64,000 nt of DNA. Source: Pseudanabaena sp. (GTDB taxonomy: Bacteria; Cyanobacteriota; Cyanobacteriia; Pseudanabaenales; Pseudanabaenaceae). The position numbers and the translations under genes are program-made. This document shows positions 829 to 31,785 of this stretch, piece after piece. Numbering within the stretch: position 1 is the stretch's first letter; every line of letters begins with the position of its first letter. The stretch spans positions 62,001 through 126,000 of the forward strand of contig QBMK01000004.1 of the NCBI GenBank assembly GCA_003249035.1, written 5' to 3'. Under the pieces are notes generated by a model that did no database searches, was not told the DNA's origin, and saw nothing but the letters and a program-made list of their open reading frames with translations.

Positions 829-1458
829 ATGAATCGAAAAAAAGCAGATGAATTAAGTAAGGAATTTGGATTAAATGTTGTTCAATCTCGCTATAGTGAT
901 TGGGGGAATTTCTACGGTTTAGTTCAAAATTATCCTTGTGCTCTCTGGGATAAATCGGGTTATGTCATTTTTAATAACGAGGATGATCTAAATATCCCTG
1001 AAATCTCTGTTGCTAAAAGAATCAACATACCAAAACGCATATCCTCACTAAAAACTTATAAGCTAGTGCTGCATGAAGCTCAACTACCAGAAGAGCTACC
1101 TAGCGGAGTTGAATATCAGGAAGGTACTGTACAAAAAATTATAGTAAATAAGTATGAAAGAGATAAAAACGCACGATACGCTTGCTTGTCACATTACGGT
1201 TATATCTGCCAAGTATGTCATGTGAAACTCAGCGATGTTTACGGAGATATAGCTGAAAATCTTATTCATGTACATCACCTCAAGCCAATAAGTGAGATTG
1301 GTGAAAACTACACAGTAGATCCAATCTCCGATTTGCTTCCTGTTTGCCCGAATTGTCATACAGTCATTCACTTAAGAAATCCTCCATATTTACCTCAGGA
1401 AGTAAGCCACATGCTTCATAAAGCTTCTACATCTCAAACTGATAAAATCGCCATTTAA
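829..1458 (+). CDS. HNH endonuclease domain protein
   Basis: A 209-residue protein whose C-terminal half is an HNH nuclease fold: a CQVC knuckle at 127-130, the HVHH core at 147-150, then CPNC at 173-176 and H181, giving the two zinc-binding CxxC pairs and catalytic histidine of McrA-like HNH enzymes. The first 105 residues are a separate domain I do not recognise. It stands alone: no methyltransferase or partner lies beside it, and the next 350 bases hold only a decayed transposase fragment. Free-standing HNH proteins of this type are often restriction or mobile-element nucleases, but which applies here cannot be told. Base use is more AT-rich than in neighbouring housekeeping genes. Confidence 0.8.
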   Translation: MNRKKADELSKEFGLNVVQSRYSDWGNFYGLVQNYPCALWDKSGYVIFNNEDDLNIPEISVAKRINIPKRISSLKTYKLVLHEAQLPEELPSGVEYQEGTVQKIIVNKYERDKNARYACLSHYGYICQVCHVKLSDVYGDIAENLIHVHHLKPISEIGENYTVDPISDLLPVCPNCHTVIHLRNPPYLPQEVSHMLHKASTSQTDKIAI

Positions 1459-1633
1459 CAGCCCATTAGTCTACAGAAATATCTTTAATCGCAATTCAAG
1501 TTATTCTGCTAATTTTTACGACACTTTATCAAGCGATCTATCTGATGTCTTGAATCAAATTTAGAGGGAAGTGAACAAGAGCGCATGGTACAAGTAAGAA
1601 AGTATTTGAACAAGCTAAGAATCTATGGAAAAA

Positions 1634-1780
1634 GAATGTCATCACCGCGAATCTAAGAGGATTACAAAAAGATGGCACAACTCGCCATGGTAAACAAAAT
1701 CATAAATGTAAGGATTGCCATCGTTAATTTGTCAGCGATCCTCAAAATCAGCCAATACCTGAATTAACAAAGCAAATAAA
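1634..1780 (+). pseudogene. Decayed IS1-type transposase fragment (InsA-like zinc-finger end)
   Basis: Reading from 1634 gives ECHHRESKRI, like the first CxxC region of IS1-family InsA; after a shift of frame at an A5 run (1666-1670) it continues KDGTTRHGKQNHKCKDCHR, stop, FV. Removing a single A from that run restores one frame, and the TAA at 1725-1727 stands where the family has CAA (Q of RQFV). The second Cys of the first pair is also lost (R for C). The fragment therefore carries a frameshift, a nonsense change and a lost zinc ligand, and no catalytic part or terminal repeat remains. Confidence 0.7.
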
Positions 1781-1814
1781 AAAGAGAGTAACGCTCTGCG
1801 TCACTCTCTTTTTT
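1778..1814. terminator. Bidirectional hairpin terminator
   Basis: Arms of AAAAAAGAGAGT and ACTCTCTTTTTT pair over 12 bp with a short inner stem (ACGC/GCGT) and a 3-base loop. Poly-A on one side and poly-T on the other let it serve transcripts from both strands; it lies 3 bases after the selO stop. Confidence 0.75.
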
Positions 1815-1816
1815 AT

Positions 1817-3244
1817 TTAGTGTTTGAGTTGCGCGATCGCATCATATAGAGGTTGCCAATCATCATCAACGGTAATCCTTTCCCAGAGTTCTTCAATTTT
1901 AGGACGCAGGAAAATGATGCTGGGATTAGCTTGTTTAAGTTGCTGGGCAATATTTTCCATTTCCGCGATCGGCTGACGGATTAGCAATTGATGGTAAACG
2001 ACACGCCATTTTTCTAATAGCGGCAATTGCTCATCACTTAGTTCCCAATCATGATCAGCAAAAATCTTGTTTGCACCTTCGCGCCAATTATTTTGGAAAG
2101 ATTGACGCAGCTTGACAAAAAATTGGTTGTAGCCGATTGCTTGCACGCCTGATAGCAATTCTAGAGTTGCCCCTATCAAATCCTCTGTTTCAGGCTCAGA
2201 GAGGGTGATAAAACCTAAACGCTTTAACATCATTTCGCAATAGGCATCTCGATAGAAGTCTTTGAACTTCCCTAAAGAAGATCTCATATCATCTTTGTCC
2301 ATCACCATGCTGAGAGGATCTTGCAGTTTTTCAAGATTCCAATAGCAAGCGGCGGGTTGATTGGCATAGCTATAGCGTCCTGCATGATCGAAGTACGCGG
2401 CTGTAAATCGTGGATCGTAGGTAGGAATAAAAGCAAATGGCCCATAATCAAAGCTTTCACCAGTAATCGACATATTGTCAGTATTGAGAACCGCATGACA
2501 AAAACCTGCTGCCATCCATTGAGCGCAGAGAGTGGCAACTCGTTCGACAAGTTCTAAATAAAATATGCCATCTTGGTTCTCTTTACCCCAGATATGTGGA
2601 TAGTAAATTTGCAGAACGTGATCCAGTAATTTGCGAGTGAGATCAGCGCGTCCAATCCAACGCAACCTTTCAAAAGTGCCGAAGCGAATATGCGATCGCG
2701 AAAAGCGCACCATCACCGATGATCTCGTTGGCGAAGGTTCATCACCACGCCATAGGTCTTCGCCCGTTTCTACGAGACTGAGGCAACGGGAAGTTGTCAC
2801 GCCCATACGATGCAGAGCTTCAGATGCAATTATTTCGCGGACACCGCCTTTGAGCGTAAGCCTGCCGTCCGCAGAGCGAGAGTAGGGAGTTCGTCCAGAG
2901 CCTTTAGTTCCAAAATCGTAAAGCTCGTCATCAATGCCACGTACTTGCCCATAGATAAAGCCACGTCCGTCGCCGAGTTGTGGATTATACTCTCCAAATT
3001 GATAGCCGTGATAGCGCAGTGCTAGGAATGGGCGCACCGCCTGAAAATGCCCAAATGCTTCGATAAAGTCATCGTCGCTGACCTGCGAGGGTTTGAGTCC
3101 TAGTATCGGTAAAATATCGTCATTACGCCAACGCAATTTGTGCATCGGATATTCGGCAGCAGTAACGATGTCGTGATAGTCTGCTAAAGACTCGATCGCA
3201 GGTTCGTAGTTGAGATTAAGGAAAGGGTTGCTAGGGTGACTCAT
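1817..3244 (-). CDS. selO: Protein adenylyltransferase SelO (YdiU/UPF0061 family)
   Basis: A 475-residue pseudokinase that transfers AMP from ATP to Ser, Thr or Tyr of target proteins; in other bacteria SelO is linked to redox stress. Family signatures are clear: LGDGRGFIYGQV, then GTKGSGRTPYSRSADGR with the nucleotide-binding Lys, KGGVREIIASEALHRMGV, NTDNMSITGESFDYGPF holding the metal-binding Asn and Asp, and DHAGRYSYANQP. The C-terminus (AIAQLKH) lacks the selenocysteine or cysteine tail of animal SelO, as is usual for many bacterial forms. Its start codon overlaps or abuts the divergent pseudouridine synthase gene, so the two promoters must lie inside each other's 5' region. Confidence 0.9.
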   Translation of the reverse strand: MSHPSNPFLNLNYEPAIESLADYHDIVTAAEYPMHKLRWRNDDILPILGLKPSQVSDDDFIEAFGHFQAVRPFLALRYHGYQFGEYNPQLGDGRGFIYGQVRGIDDELYDFGTKGSGRTPYSRSADGRLTLKGGVREIIASEALHRMGVTTSRCLSLVETGEDLWRGDEPSPTRSSVMVRFSRSHIRFGTFERLRWIGRADLTRKLLDHVLQIYYPHIWGKENQDGIFYLELVERVATLCAQWMAAGFCHAVLNTDNMSITGESFDYGPFAFIPTYDPRFTAAYFDHAGRYSYANQPAACYWNLEKLQDPLSMVMDKDDMRSSLGKFKDFYRDAYCEMMLKRLGFITLSEPETEDLIGATLELLSGVQAIGYNQFFVKLRQSFQNNWREGANKIFADHDWELSDEQLPLLEKWRVVYHQLLIRQPIAEMENIAQQLKQANPSIIFLRPKIEELWERITVDDDWQPLYDAIAQLKH

Positions 3245-4891
3245 ATCGAAGAAATAAGCGACGAAATATTAAATGCTTCTGCCATGATACTTGGTTCAGA
3301 TCGCGATCAAGATGCAACCTACTGGTATGAGGGGCGTTGTCCCTATAGTGGCGAAGTATTGAGGTTGCCAAGAACCTTGCAATCTGAGGCGATCGCTCAT
3401 AGTTTAATGCAGGAACTAGGGTGCATTTATCCTCATGATATGGAAGGCAAAATGTATGGGGTATTACTTGTCGAATCATTAACGGGAGAAAGAGCCGTTC
3501 TGAAAGCCTTTTCTGGTTTATTAAATGGGAAAAGCCAACTCGAAGAATGGGTTCCACCGATCGCAGGTAGAGAAAAAGTAGCCATTGAGGAATCTATTAC
3601 CCTAAACAAGTTAGCGACAATTAAACAGGAACTAATTGAGTTAAGTGAGATTCCTGAACGCTTAGAATATGAGAAAAAGGTACAAGAATATGAGTTGAAA
3701 TTTCAAGTTTTACGCGATCGTCATCAAGTTTCTAAACAAGCGCGACAGCTAAAAAGAATTCTCAATAATGCAGATTTAGAAGGTTTAGATCGCGAAAGCC
3801 AGTTAGAGAAGGTGGCAAGACGTGATTTTAAACGCGATCGCGATCAAGTTTTGCTGCCATTAAAAGAAGTGATCGCCTTAGCTGATGCAAAAATGCAAAT
3901 TCTCAAAAAGCAACGCCGAGAGTTATCACGCACTCTACAAACACAGATGCATAGCGCTTATGTATTAACAAATTTTGCTGGAGAAACGCGATCGCTACGA
4001 GAATTAATTACGGAAGGCGCAATGCCCACAGGAATGGGAGATTGTTGTGCTCCTAAGCTGTTGCATTATGCAGCGACTAGTAATCTCATACCTTTAGCGA
4101 TGGCAGAATTTTGGTGGGGAAATCCTTCGGCTGATGGTTACAAAATTCAATGTGAGTTTTATGGCGCTTGCGTGGAGAGATGCCAACCTTTGATGGGATT
4201 TTTATTGTCAGGAAGAAGATCCCCCCCAGCCCCAAATATATCTGCAAATCTTGCTCCGCAAGATTTGCAGATCATCTATGAAGATGCCTATCTAATTGCG
4301 ATCGCAAAACCTTCAGGACTTCTCTCTGTGCCTGGGAGGTACTTGGATACTCAGGACAGCGTTCTCAGTCGATTGCGTCAATCTCTAGGCGCAGATGCAC
4401 CTATTTATCCAGTGCATCGCCTCGATCGCCAAACTTCAGGAATTTTATTATGTGTGCGTGATTTAGAATCTCTTCGCAGTTTAAATCATCAGTTTGAACA
4501 AAGACTAATTCACAAAATATATGAGGCTTTATTATCTGGAAAGATAGGGCGTGAGCATGGGAAAATTGATTTACCATTGTGGGGTAACCCCGAAAATCGT
4601 CCCTTCCAACAGGTCGATTTTGAACGAGGCAAACCTAGCGTGACTGAGTTTCGCTTGTTTGAAAGTAAAGAAAATTATTCGCGAATAGAATTTATACCTT
4701 TAACTGGTAGGACTCATCAATTGCGGGTTCACTCTGCCGATCCCAGAGGTTTAGGGATAACAATCTTAGGCGATCGCCTTTATGGTTGTCAGGCAGTAAC
4801 AAGTCGTCTACATCTCCATGCACGGGAGTTGTCTTTCAGACATCCGCGATCGCAAGAAGTAATTCATCTGCAAATACCTGTTCCATTTTAA
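3236..4891 (+). CDS. RluA-family RNA pseudouridine synthase with long N-terminal extension
   Basis: The catalytic domain fills roughly residues 345-551: HRLDRQTSGI (about 394-403) carries the catalytic Asp, and GRTHQLRVH near the C-terminus is the second RluA signature. It isomerises uridine to pseudouridine in rRNA or tRNA; the target base cannot be read from sequence. The first 340 residues form the extension seen in large cyanobacterial relatives: YWYEGRCPYSGE, EGKMYGVLLVES, VLKAFSGLLNG, then a charged coiled coil (about 120-245). The listed GTG start overlaps the divergent selO start by 9 bases; an ATG at 3284 (residue 17) just before the conserved region is an alternative. Neither has a clear ribosome binding site. 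Confidence 0.85.
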   Translation: MTHIEEISDEILNASAMILGSDRDQDATYWYEGRCPYSGEVLRLPRTLQSEAIAHSLMQELGCIYPHDMEGKMYGVLLVESLTGERAVLKAFSGLLNGKSQLEEWVPPIAGREKVAIEESITLNKLATIKQELIELSEIPERLEYEKKVQEYELKFQVLRDRHQVSKQARQLKRILNNADLEGLDRESQLEKVARRDFKRDRDQVLLPLKEVIALADAKMQILKKQRRELSRTLQTQMHSAYVLTNFAGETRSLRELITEGAMPTGMGDCCAPKLLHYAATSNLIPLAMAEFWWGNPSADGYKIQCEFYGACVERCQPLMGFLLSGRRSPPAPNISANLAPQDLQIIYEDAYLIAIAKPSGLLSVPGRYLDTQDSVLSRLRQSLGADAPIYPVHRLDRQTSGILLCVRDLESLRSLNHQFEQRLIHKIYEALLSGKIGREHGKIDLPLWGNPENRPFQQVDFERGKPSVTEFRLFESKENYSRIEFIPLTGRTHQLRVHSADPRGLGITILGDRLYGCQAVTSRLHLHARELSFRHPRSQEVIHLQIPVPF

Positions 4892-29556: not shown

Positions 29557-30810
29557 TTAAGCGTCAAGAGCGATCGCTTTATCAATCGCTAACTTTTGGT
29601 TGAGACGGGTTTGATAAGCTTGCAATTCCTTCGGCTTGATGCCGCTAATGATGCAAAAGCTATCAACATCGATGCCACGAGATAACATTTCGAGACACCA
29701 AGTATGACGTGCTTGATCAATTGTTAAAGGAGAGCCATTCAAATTTCGATAGGGCTGTGTCCAACGCTCCCAAAGTTGCTCGATCTCTTCTAAGGAAAGT
29801 GGTTTACCTTCGCTGCTGAGAATCAAAGGTGCAATTTCTTCAATATTTTTCAGATCTTTTAGATCCTTTAACTCATTCTTGCGAGTCTTGAGGTAAGCAC
29901 TAAGGGGATTATTCGTTGCTGAGCCATAGCGATGACCGAGAATTTTTTGATTGAGTGGTACTGATCTCTCGTTACCTGTAGCATCCCTAGTTAGTAAAAT
30001 TCCATGATTCGCTTGGTGCTGATAGTCTTTTAAGCGCAAACGAGTAATATCGATTGCCGTCAGCCCAGACCCAAATAATAAATAGGCGATCGCATAGTCC
30101 TTTGCCCCACATTTTTTTGCTTGCAAGAGGATTTCGCGCACGGTCTCCGCTGAAATATCGTTAATCGGTCTTGCTTGAGAGATCGGGTTAACTTCTTGAA
30201 CAAACATATCCACAAGCGTACTTACAAATTCGTCGCGATCGCGCCAAATTGCCTGCACATCGCTGGTTAAAGTGATCACTGCGTAGCCCAAAATACAAGT
30301 ATTCAATAAGTTAGCAAGCTTGATCGGTGGCAAAGAATATTGCAAGCGTGAATTGACTAATACATCGTTGATAGCAGTTGCGATAGTTTGGTTGACTTGG
30401 TTAATGCCTTGAGCCAAGGCTTGTCGGCTTTCGAGAGGATATTGTCCTGCCTCGCCAACTAGTGATCGCACCAACTCAGGTACACTTTCAAGTGCCCTTA
30501 ATGAACTTTGAATGTAATATTTGAGAAATCTGCGTAAATCGCTCTGACTAGAGATATCTGACACCATCAGCGACTCTCCCACTTGAGCCAACACCAAATA
30601 TTTTTGCAGACATTCTTGCAATACTGCTAGTAATAGTCCATGTTTATTTCCAAAATGACGGAATAAAGTTACTTCGTTGACCTGAGCAAAGTCAGCGATT
30701 TGGCGAGTAGTTGTCTCGGTGATTCCTTTACTAGCAAACAATTCTAGCGCTGTGTTCACTATGCGTTGACGTGTAGGAATTCGAGATACAGTCATTAGAG
30801 CATGTACCAT
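29557..30810 (-). CDS. TetR/AcrR regulator fused to a tyrosine-recombinase-like domain
   Basis: From the ATG at 30810 the protein has 417 residues (ATG at 30795 also possible; the TTG at 30825 lies in an operator). Residues 13-57 are a TetR helix-turn-helix (TRQRIVNTALELFASKGI...TTTRQIADFAQVNEVTLFRHFGNK); to about 205 follows a ligand-sensing helical part. Residues 220-410 resemble the phage-integrase catalytic fold: YLLFGSGLTAIDITRLRLKDY, then ARHTWCLEMLSRG and LQAY. In this alignment the first catalytic Arg is Thr and both His are replaced, while the second Arg and Tyr remain, so it is probably not an active recombinase. It diverges from a desaturase across two palindromes and probably represses it. 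Confidence 0.82.
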   Translation of the reverse strand: MVHALMTVSRIPTRQRIVNTALELFASKGITETTTRQIADFAQVNEVTLFRHFGNKHGLLLAVLQECLQKYLVLAQVGESLMVSDISSQSDLRRFLKYYIQSSLRALESVPELVRSLVGEAGQYPLESRQALAQGINQVNQTIATAINDVLVNSRLQYSLPPIKLANLLNTCILGYAVITLTSDVQAIWRDRDEFVSTLVDMFVQEVNPISQARPINDISAETVREILLQAKKCGAKDYAIAYLLFGSGLTAIDITRLRLKDYQHQANHGILLTRDATGNERSVPLNQKILGHRYGSATNNPLSAYLKTRKNELKDLKDLKNIEEIAPLILSSEGKPLSLEEIEQLWERWTQPYRNLNGSPLTIDQARHTWCLEMLSRGIDVDSFCIISGIKPKELQAYQTRLNQKLAIDKAIALDA

Positions 30811-30820
30811 TGAGATGATT

Positions 30821-30837
30821 TGCAAGTGATACTTGCA
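30821..30837. promoter_or_regulatory. Operator 1, probable TetR binding site
   Basis: TGCAAGTGATACTTGCA is a perfect 7-bp inverted repeat with a 3-base centre, 10 bases before the regulator's ATG. Its near copy lies 51 bases away at 30872-30888. Binding is inferred from position and symmetry. Confidence 0.8.
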
Positions 30838-30871
30838 TTATTACTTAAAAAGCAGTTAAACTTAATATAAC

Positions 30872-30888
30872 TGTAAGTGATACTTGCA
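30872..30888. promoter_or_regulatory. Operator 2, probable TetR binding site
   Basis: TGTAAGTGATACTTGCA differs from operator 1 at one base and keeps six of seven paired positions. It lies 30 bases before the desaturase ATG, so a bound regulator could block that promoter. The two sites are 51 bp centre to centre, close to five helical turns. Confidence 0.8.
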
Positions 30889-30918
30889 TCTCCTCACCAC
30901 CCACTAAGTTGTTATTTC

Positions 30919-31785
30919 ATGACCGCCACTACTGAAGCCATCTCAACTGAACAAAAACTGAACTGGACTAATGTCGCCTTCTTCAGTGCTTTTCATCTCG
31001 CTGCCCTAGCTGCTCCTTTTTACTTCTCATGGCAAGCTGTAATTCTTACAGTTTTCTTGCATTGGTTATTTGGCAGCATCGGTATTACTTTAGGATATCA
31101 TCGCTTACTTAGCCATCGGAGCTTCCAAGTGCCTCAGTGGTTGGAATACATCATCGCTACCATCGGTGCATTTGCACTGCAAGGCGGGCCAGTATTTTGG
31201 GTGGGCGGACATCGTCAGCATCATGGTTTTACAGAAGACAATCAAAAAGATCCCTACTCGGCAAACAAGGGTTTTTGGTGGAGTCACATGATGTGGATCA
31301 TGTACTCTAAACCTGAGCATTTTCAACGTTCAAACTACAGTAAATTTGCGCCCGATCTTGCTAACGATCCTTACTACAAGTTTTTAGATGTTTATTTCTT
31401 ATTGTTGCAAGTGCCACTCGCAATATTGCTCTATGTAATTGGCGAAAAGGTTTTCTCTGGACTAGGGTTATCATTCTTGGTTTATGGTGTGGCAGTTCGC
31501 TCAGTATTTCTCTGGCATAGCACTTGGTTGATTAATTCTGCTTGCCACAAATGGGGATACAAAAACTTTGCGGAAACCCCCGATCATTCTACAAATCTTT
31601 GGTGGGCAGCGATTTTGACCTATGGCGAAGGCTGGCACAACAATCATCACGCATTTCCCAAATCGGCACGTTCTGGTTTGAAATGGTGGGAAATCGATCC
31701 AACTTGGGGCGTGATCAATTTACTGCAAGCAGTTGGCTTAGCGAAAAAAGTTTATTTGCCTGAGCCTTGGCAGCCCAGTAAATAA
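30919..31785 (+). CDS. desC: Acyl-lipid/acyl-CoA delta-9-type fatty acid desaturase
   Basis: From the ATG at 30919 the protein has 288 residues; a GTG at 30877 falls inside operator 2 and is rejected. Three histidine boxes bind the di-iron centre: HRLLSH (61-66), HRQHH (98-102) and HNNHH (near 237). Hydrophobic stretches at about 22-55, 75-95 and 160-190 place it in the membrane. DesC enzymes introduce the first double bond (delta-9) in membrane lipids, usually in response to cold. Its divergent TetR neighbour with twin operators suggests feedback control by fatty-acyl or other ligands. Which desC class is uncertain. Confidence 0.9.
   Translation: MTATTEAISTEQKLNWTNVAFFSAFHLAALAAPFYFSWQAVILTVFLHWLFGSIGITLGYHRLLSHRSFQVPQWLEYIIATIGAFALQGGPVFWVGGHRQHHGFTEDNQKDPYSANKGFWWSHMMWIMYSKPEHFQRSNYSKFAPDLANDPYYKFLDVYFLLLQVPLAILLYVIGEKVFSGLGLSFLVYGVAVRSVFLWHSTWLINSACHKWGYKNFAETPDHSTNLWWAAILTYGEGWHNNHHAFPKSARSGLKWWEIDPTWGVINLLQAVGLAKKVYLPEPWQPSK

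Follow-up and report, generated by a model that had tools for sequence, protein, structure and literature searches.

A TetR-family regulator fused to a degenerate tyrosine-recombinase domain, with conserved twin palindromes, beside a delta-9-type desaturase gene in cyanobacteria

Introduction

Membrane fluidity in cyanobacteria is set by delta-9 desaturation. In other systems, the regulators DesT and MadR control fatty acid desaturation and respond to acyl-CoA, as set out in the excerpt of PMC8872791 on which we draw. A second, unrelated line of work concerns tyrosine recombinases that have become regulators. The excerpt of PMC10516654 describes MrpR (YopR), the master repressor of the Bacillus prophage SPbeta, as a dead tyrosine recombinase whose retained tyrosine supports DNA binding. 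In animals, the Crypton-derived DUF3504 proteins include KCTD1, ZMYM2/3/4, QRICH1 and WOC (PMC3212892, in excerpt). Here, we analyse a locus of Pseudanabaena sp. in which a TetR-type regulator and a degenerate recombinase domain are parts of the same protein. The locus lies within a 64,000-nucleotide stretch of DNA, which is referred to as the window below and whose numbering is used throughout.

Domain composition and predicted fold of the fusion protein

A single frame on the minus strand (29557-30825) codes for one protein in which both TetR_N (Pfam PF00440; 3.1e-13, 49.7 bits against a cut-off of 24) and Phage_integrase (Pfam; 1.8e-8, 34.8 bits against a cut-off of 27.1) are recognized. 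The more likely start, judging from the alignment, is the ATG at 30810, which gives a coding sequence of 417 amino acids (29557..30810, minus strand), since the initial MVH is kept in all 22 rows of the Pseudanabaena group (two of these rows being repeats) and since the second methionine is absent from two rows of this group, L046 and L055. All residue numbers used here follow P0001, the 412-residue version that starts at ATG 30795. In this numbering, the TetR_N helix-turn-helix matched by Pfam occupies residues 12-58 (30622..30762, minus strand) and belongs to a TetR half, residues 1-206 (30178..30795, minus strand), that combines the helix-turn-helix with an all-helical, ligand-type domain. 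Residues 207-412 (29560..30177, minus strand) form a degenerate tyrosine-recombinase catalytic domain, called the Int half below. The place of a core-binding domain is taken by the TetR half, the preceding 206 residues matching the TetR fold.

The original prediction had joined a TetR-type N-terminus to an integrase-like C-terminus, and this architecture was borne out, both Pfam domains being present in one frame and both folds being predicted. The full-length model had a mean pLDDT of 82.1, with low confidence around residues 70-80, and its pTM of 0.54 makes the relative placing of the two halves unreliable. Residues 4-206 of this model aligned with TetR structures in the PDB with Z of up to 17.6, and residues 210-412 aligned with XerA (Z 19.9, 178 aligned, rmsd 3.6). 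Structure prediction of the C-terminal half by itself also gave an integrase fold, with a pLDDT of 93.3 and a pTM of 0.90. All 50 of the 50 rows listed by Foldseek for this model were tyrosine recombinases, the best being XerA (7.1e-8). In the VIA list, XerA 5hxy_F (Z 19.8, 176 aligned, rmsd 3.5) is accompanied by lambda Int (Z 14.8), a chain of the phage SroF-Sar complex (Z 12.4), topoisomerases IB (Z about 12), YopR (Z 11.5) and MrpR (Z 11.1). At the level of profiles, the Int half matched archaeal Xer 4a8e (5.6e-11), and Phage_integrase was matched by 47 of 49 family Int domains, each scanned singly.

State of the catalytic residues

The catalytic columns of the window protein read T246, N275, D360, R363, I386 and Y394. 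The set R-K-H-R-(H/W)-Y of active tyrosine recombinases is thus incomplete: the first arginine (Arg-I), the lysine, the histidine and the third histidine or tryptophan are all replaced, and the second arginine (Arg-II) and the tyrosine remain. This agrees with the original residue-by-residue reading of this protein, in which Arg-I had become threonine, both histidines had been replaced, and Arg-II and the tyrosine had been kept. Ten stand-alone integrases, seven from the same genome and three from genomes of family f26, served as controls. They had arginine at column 246 (10/10), lysine at 275 (4/10), histidine at 360 (6/10), arginine at 363 (9/10), histidine at 386 (6/10) and tyrosine at 394 (6/10), the shortfalls being due in part to cut or poorly aligned rows.

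Across 105 distinct rows of the family, column 246 holds serine in 76, threonine in 20, lysine in three and arginine in one; column 386 holds cysteine in 37, tryptophan in 34 and isoleucine in 17. In active tyrosine recombinases Arg-II is a catalytic residue that contacts DNA. At the corresponding column 363, the relatives have glutamine in 72 rows and arginine in 25, and Arg-II is gone in 80 of the 105; judging from these rows, the arginine kept in the window protein is not a feature of the family, where this position is mostly glutamine. The tyrosine of column 394 is present in 100 rows and is replaced by phenylalanine in four and histidine in one. The role of the MrpR tyrosine in DNA binding suggests, by analogy, that Tyr394 may have been retained for a similar role. 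The net charge of the Int half has a median of +1 to +2, the control integrases ranging from -3 to +8; these values do not discriminate between binding of DNA and binding of protein.

The divergent desaturase gene

The gene that faces away from the regulator (30919..31785, plus strand; 288 amino acids from the likely start ATG 30919) codes for a delta-9-type fatty acid desaturase. The product passes the cut-off of Pfam FA_desaturase; in NCBIfam, its match to the DesA family stays below the cut-off (94.1 against 400 bits). Its histidine boxes, HRLLSHRSF, WVGGHRQHH and GEGWHNNHH, agree with those of sn-1 delta-9 desaturases as given in the excerpt of PMC2593844. Moreover, in one genome whose regulator lacks the Int half, the coordinates of the adjoining desaturase are those of CYB_0861 of Synechococcus JA-2-3B'a(2-13), which is listed as d9 in the same excerpt.

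A link of the regulator with the desaturase next door had been proposed from the window alone, and the wider family upholds it. In each of the 109 fused loci examined first (105 of them distinct), a desaturase with 56-100 % identity adjoins the regulator gene back to back. The genome from which the window comes also has a second delta-9-type desaturase gene, 60 % identical to the one in the window and present in two pieces (L197, G000:C5:1500-6500, 1143-3713); between the pieces lies a 530-residue frame in which DUF4277 and transposase DDE domains are recognized.

Twin palindromes in the shared promoter

Two palindromes said to lie 51 bp apart in the divergent promoter were located where expected. 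The tetR-proximal one, TGCAAGTGATACTTGCA (30821-30837), is a perfect 7+3+7 palindrome 10 bases before ATG 30810, and the desaturase-proximal one, TGTAAGTGATACTTGCA (30872-30888), matches the family consensus; both are putative operators, and their start-to-start distance is 51 bp. As an observation apart, the plus strand gives a terminator-like score where the tetR-side palindrome is followed by a run rich in T.

The search for further sites that the original prediction had suggested was carried out with the consensus TGCAAGT-N3-ACTTGCA, the reversed pattern serving as control. The genome of the window contains the two promoter sites only and no match to the reversed pattern. When 14 genomes were scanned whole, nine had exactly two consensus sites, both at this promoter. 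One extra strict site each was found in two genomes (G193:C22:3022-3038 and G332:C2:753620-753636), and in two others, G011 and G327, the strict pattern missed one of the paired sites. The reversed pattern was absent from 12 of the 14 genomes and occurred once in each of two.

The pair was present in all of the 109 fused loci examined first, within 500 bp of the start in 108 of them and further upstream in G174. After removal of repeats there were 130 distinct loci, classed as 118 fused, two frameshifted and ten lacking the Int half. Twin sites were found in 118/118 fused and 2/2 frameshifted loci; among the ten others, four had a pair and six a single site. In a later set from the window's own family, f1, which overlaps the earlier genomes in part, 19 of 20 loci were fused, and 18 of these 19 had the pair, the fused locus L208 having a single site.

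The distance between the two sites is 43-48 bp in 96 of the 118 distinct fused loci, 86 of which have 46 or 47 bp, i.e., about 4.5 helical turns. A spacing of 51-53 bp is seen in 20 loci, confined to the Pseudanabaena group and L030, and single loci have 58 and 85 bp. Since the desaturase match begins anywhere from 88 to 711 bp from the start of the regulator in the 109 fused loci and the spacing of the sites is nearly constant, the spacing looks as if it were under selection.

The spacer between the palindromes contains a conserved TA(A/G)C core, in most cases located 20-21 bp before the tetR-proximal palindrome; in the window it is TAAC on the minus strand (30855..30858). The core occurs in 123 of 124 spacers, compared with 22.5 % after shuffling of bases. 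It is also kept in loci without the Int half (L118, L141, L154 and those of genus g55), although it is absent from this position in another such locus, L203. Reading TA(A/G)C as an inter-operator site for the Int domain is therefore disfavoured; the retention of the core without the Int half makes it more likely that this candidate element is part of a promoter. A sigma-70 scan of 30600-31100 returned no promoter-like site and no -35 or -10 boxes.

An additional near-operator, TGCAAGTGCCACTCGCA, is found at 31406-31422, inside the desaturase gene. A site with 11-13 of 14 matches lies at about the same distance in nine of the 20 f1 loci. It could be a remote third site, or the resemblance could reflect coding constraint.

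Loci without the recombinase half

Loci in which the Int half is missing allow one to ask whether the presence of the domain is tied to that of the second site. Two of the ten loci so classed, L141 and L155, run into contig ends, so their Int halves are perhaps missing from the assembly only, and they were set aside for this reason. Among the nine complete loci without the Int half, two have twin sites and seven a single one. The twin-site loci are L118, with sites 47 bp apart and the desaturase kept, and L154, with sites 49 bp apart, one of them matching at 12 of 14 positions. The single-site loci are six from genus g55 and L203 of family f1, which codes for a 219-residue protein next to a divergent desaturase (68 %) and has one perfect site; no Int profile match was found in 7 kb of sequence at L203, and no other site above 9/14 nearby.

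L118, which comes from a single-contig genome, falls among fused rows, with SH-aLRT supports of 98, 89 and 99 at successive forks, in a quick tree that excludes L203, has long branches and a distant outgroup, is supported by SH-aLRT rather than bootstrap values, and is weak at 26 of its 69 inner branches. Given this placement, the twin sites of L118 probably outlived the Int domain. The fused L208, with its single site, is the converse case. The domain and the second site can thus be separated, but they occur together more often than not. With seven of nine complete loci being single-site when the Int half is missing, the Int domain may be linked with the second site.

Separately, we note several loci (L127/L157, L156, L204 and L205) in which the Int half is out of frame and both the desaturase and the twin sites are kept; the site pairs of L204 and L205 are 47 and 48 bp apart. 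These loci come from draft genomes, so assembly errors are possible.

Distribution and constraint

At least 79 loci of genome_contigs, all from cyanobacteria, match the query from residues 1-9 to 411-412 with 40-98 % identity, the closest among the matches listed being those of Pseudanabaena (95-98 %). In a sample of the phylum, 30 of 292 genomes, the window's own included, had both halves, as one row in 26 and as two adjoining rows in four. Of 116 class genomes, 57 gave a match of the Int-half profile to an open frame of 387-530 residues, the length of the fusion, a count that rests on the Int domain and the frame length rather than on the TetR half of each. The TetR half alone was found in at least 191 of 388 class genomes.

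Five genomes of family f26 gave weak matches of the Int profile (4e-8 to 6e-7) to stand-alone integrases of 322-366 residues. These f26 genomes are without the fusion, and three of their stand-alone integrases, L198, L199 and L200, have the usual catalytic residues; such proteins may point to where the Int domain came from. As to a viral origin of the fusion, 81 pattern matches were obtained in viral_contigs, none of which was confirmed. Seven further loci, L120-L126, code for paralogous TetR proteins with 31-57 % identity over the aligned part; no Int-half match, desaturase match or operator pair was found within the stretch examined around them.

Within the Pseudanabaena group, the median dN/dS was 0.113 for the Int half (72 usable of 171 pairs) and 0.027 for the TetR half (117 usable of 171 pairs), with many pairs near saturation; by this measure, the Int half is evolving faster than the TetR half, yet is constrained. 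In 24 columns of the Int half, the residue is the same in all 49 family rows or in all but one. Tyr238, Asn282, Asn296 and Trp366 are invariant in 49/49 and are mostly different in the ten control integrases.

Discussion

We consider it likely that the locus encodes a TetR-family repressor that controls both itself and a delta-9-type desaturase, is released by a lipid ligand and carries a fused, inactivated recombinase domain as an accessory module. The regulator is probably dedicated to the desaturase, because the gene pair is conserved, the twin sites are conserved, and nine of 14 genomes are without other sites. For this protein we infer repression, binding, a ligand and a role of the dead domain as follows. 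The catalytic domain of a tyrosine recombinase would have been fused to a TetR regulator and then inactivated. A TetR dimer would sit on each palindrome, the TetR half reading the sites; occupancy of the tetR-side site, just before the regulator's own start codon, would cause autorepression, and occupancy of the desaturase-side site in the shared promoter would repress the desaturase. Release of the regulator would be brought about by a lipid-derived ligand, probably an acyl chain carrier, so that membrane unsaturation is adjusted. This step is modelled on DesT and MadR as presented in the excerpt of PMC8872791; the TetR half resembles Bacillus FadR no more than it does many TetR proteins with other ligands. 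The dead recombinase half would make accessory contacts with DNA or protein and tune the occupancy or stability of the complex without recombination. A TetR half that reads the sites and a dead domain that serves as accessory contact module appear to us to be the most likely division of labour.

What the Int half contacts is where the readings part. It may, as a tentative possibility, be mainly a module for protein contact or stability that has no contact with DNA and faces, e.g., a co-regulator or RNA polymerase. Residues that are invariant in the family and mostly different in control integrases, such as the four named above, fit this reading, as does the change of Arg-II to glutamine in 72 of 105 rows, but no partner is known, and 100 of 105 rows retain the tyrosine, which in MrpR supports DNA binding (PMC10516654, in excerpt). 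Rather less probable, in our estimate, is a switch in which dead recombinase halves pair across two TetR dimers, so that the promoter is looped or bridged cooperatively. The catalytic domains of Cre, Xer and lambda Int assemble on paired sites, and the near-fixed spacing of two sites in every distinct fused locus (118/118), the long C-terminal helix and the retained tyrosine would all suit such pairing. What keeps looping in contention is the single site in seven of nine complete loci without the Int half. Against it stand the shift in spacing by about half a helical turn from one group of loci to another (46-48 versus 51-53 bp), the twin sites of L118 and L154 without an Int half, the single site of the fused L208, and the stiffness of DNA as short as the twin-site spacing. 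The original interpretation hence held only in part: the twin sites, the dead recombinase fold and the link with the desaturase stood, whereas the loop over about five helical turns is one possibility among others, most relatives having about 4.5 turns and L118, L154 and L208 being exceptions. The same spacing shift and the same three loci speak against taking looping by the Int half as a proven cause of the twin sites. A broader version, in which the domesticated domain uses recombinase-type subunit contacts to bridge two TetR dimers on the fixed twin operators, or to clamp them over the divergent promoter, and so puts the desaturase and its regulator under one common nucleoprotein switch, is likewise somewhat unlikely; the single site in most complete loci without the Int half fits it.

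Two other readings fare far worse than that of an accessory module. The recombinase fold, the paired palindromes and the retained tyrosine might suggest that the fusion is still an active recombinase acting on the palindromes. This is very improbable, as Arg-I is gone in 104 of 105 rows and Arg-II in 80, the lysine, the histidine and the third histidine or tryptophan are replaced in the window protein, a core-binding domain is missing, and the divergent gene order is constant in 109/109 loci. That the fusion is a recent accident or an assembly artefact of this genome has nothing to recommend it except the oddness of such a protein, and it is scarcely credible in view of at least 79 near-full-length loci at 40-98 % and of both halves in 30 of 292 genomes; the breadth of the family contradicts it.

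With an accessory recombinase half as the preferred reading, the locus would provide one probable dedicated regulator, with putative operators and target, of delta-9 desaturation across many cyanobacterial lineages, and an example, from a cellular rather than a phage setting, of how a tyrosine recombinase can become one part of a regulator. Natural variants, in which the domain or a site has been lost, separate the Int domain from the second site. If bridging were true, a recombinase domain would have passed from cutting DNA to bridging it in a widespread transcription switch of cyanobacteria.

Comparison with known systems

The window protein resembles DesT and MadR in that they regulate a fatty acid desaturase: its gene adjoins one, and the palindromes lie in the shared promoter. 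The likeness is drawn from the description rather than from sequence, and the excerpt of PMC8872791 makes no mention of a recombinase half. Bacillus FadR (3whc with stearoyl-CoA; 5gpa) shares the fold of the TetR half (Z 16.9-17.3) but matches this half alone, and many TetR structures tie with it. From the other side, XerA and other Xer proteins have the catalytic-domain fold in common with the Int half; the fusion differs in being without the catalytic residues and the core-binding domain and in being attached to TetR. MrpR, a repressor, also has the tyrosine-recombinase fold (Z 11.1-11.5 with the Int half), has lost catalytic arginine and histidine and has kept the tyrosine. However, as far as the excerpt describes it, MrpR has its own core-binding domain where the fusion has the TetR half, binds DNA through the recombinase fold and serves a prophage, whereas the window fusion adjoins a cellular lipid gene. 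The DUF3504 proteins resemble the fusion as old, conserved transcription regulators with an inactivated tyrosine-recombinase domain; they differ in being eukaryotic, in their partner domains and in the loss of the catalytic tyrosine in all of them (PMC3212892, in excerpt).

Among the open-access papers searched, no description of a TetR-recombinase fusion was found. Control of desaturases by DesT and MadR was already known, as were dead recombinases acting as regulators in phage (MrpR) and in animals (DUF3504), in the excerpts cited; the papers searched gave no instance of both in one protein, tied to one gene and broadly distributed in cyanobacteria.
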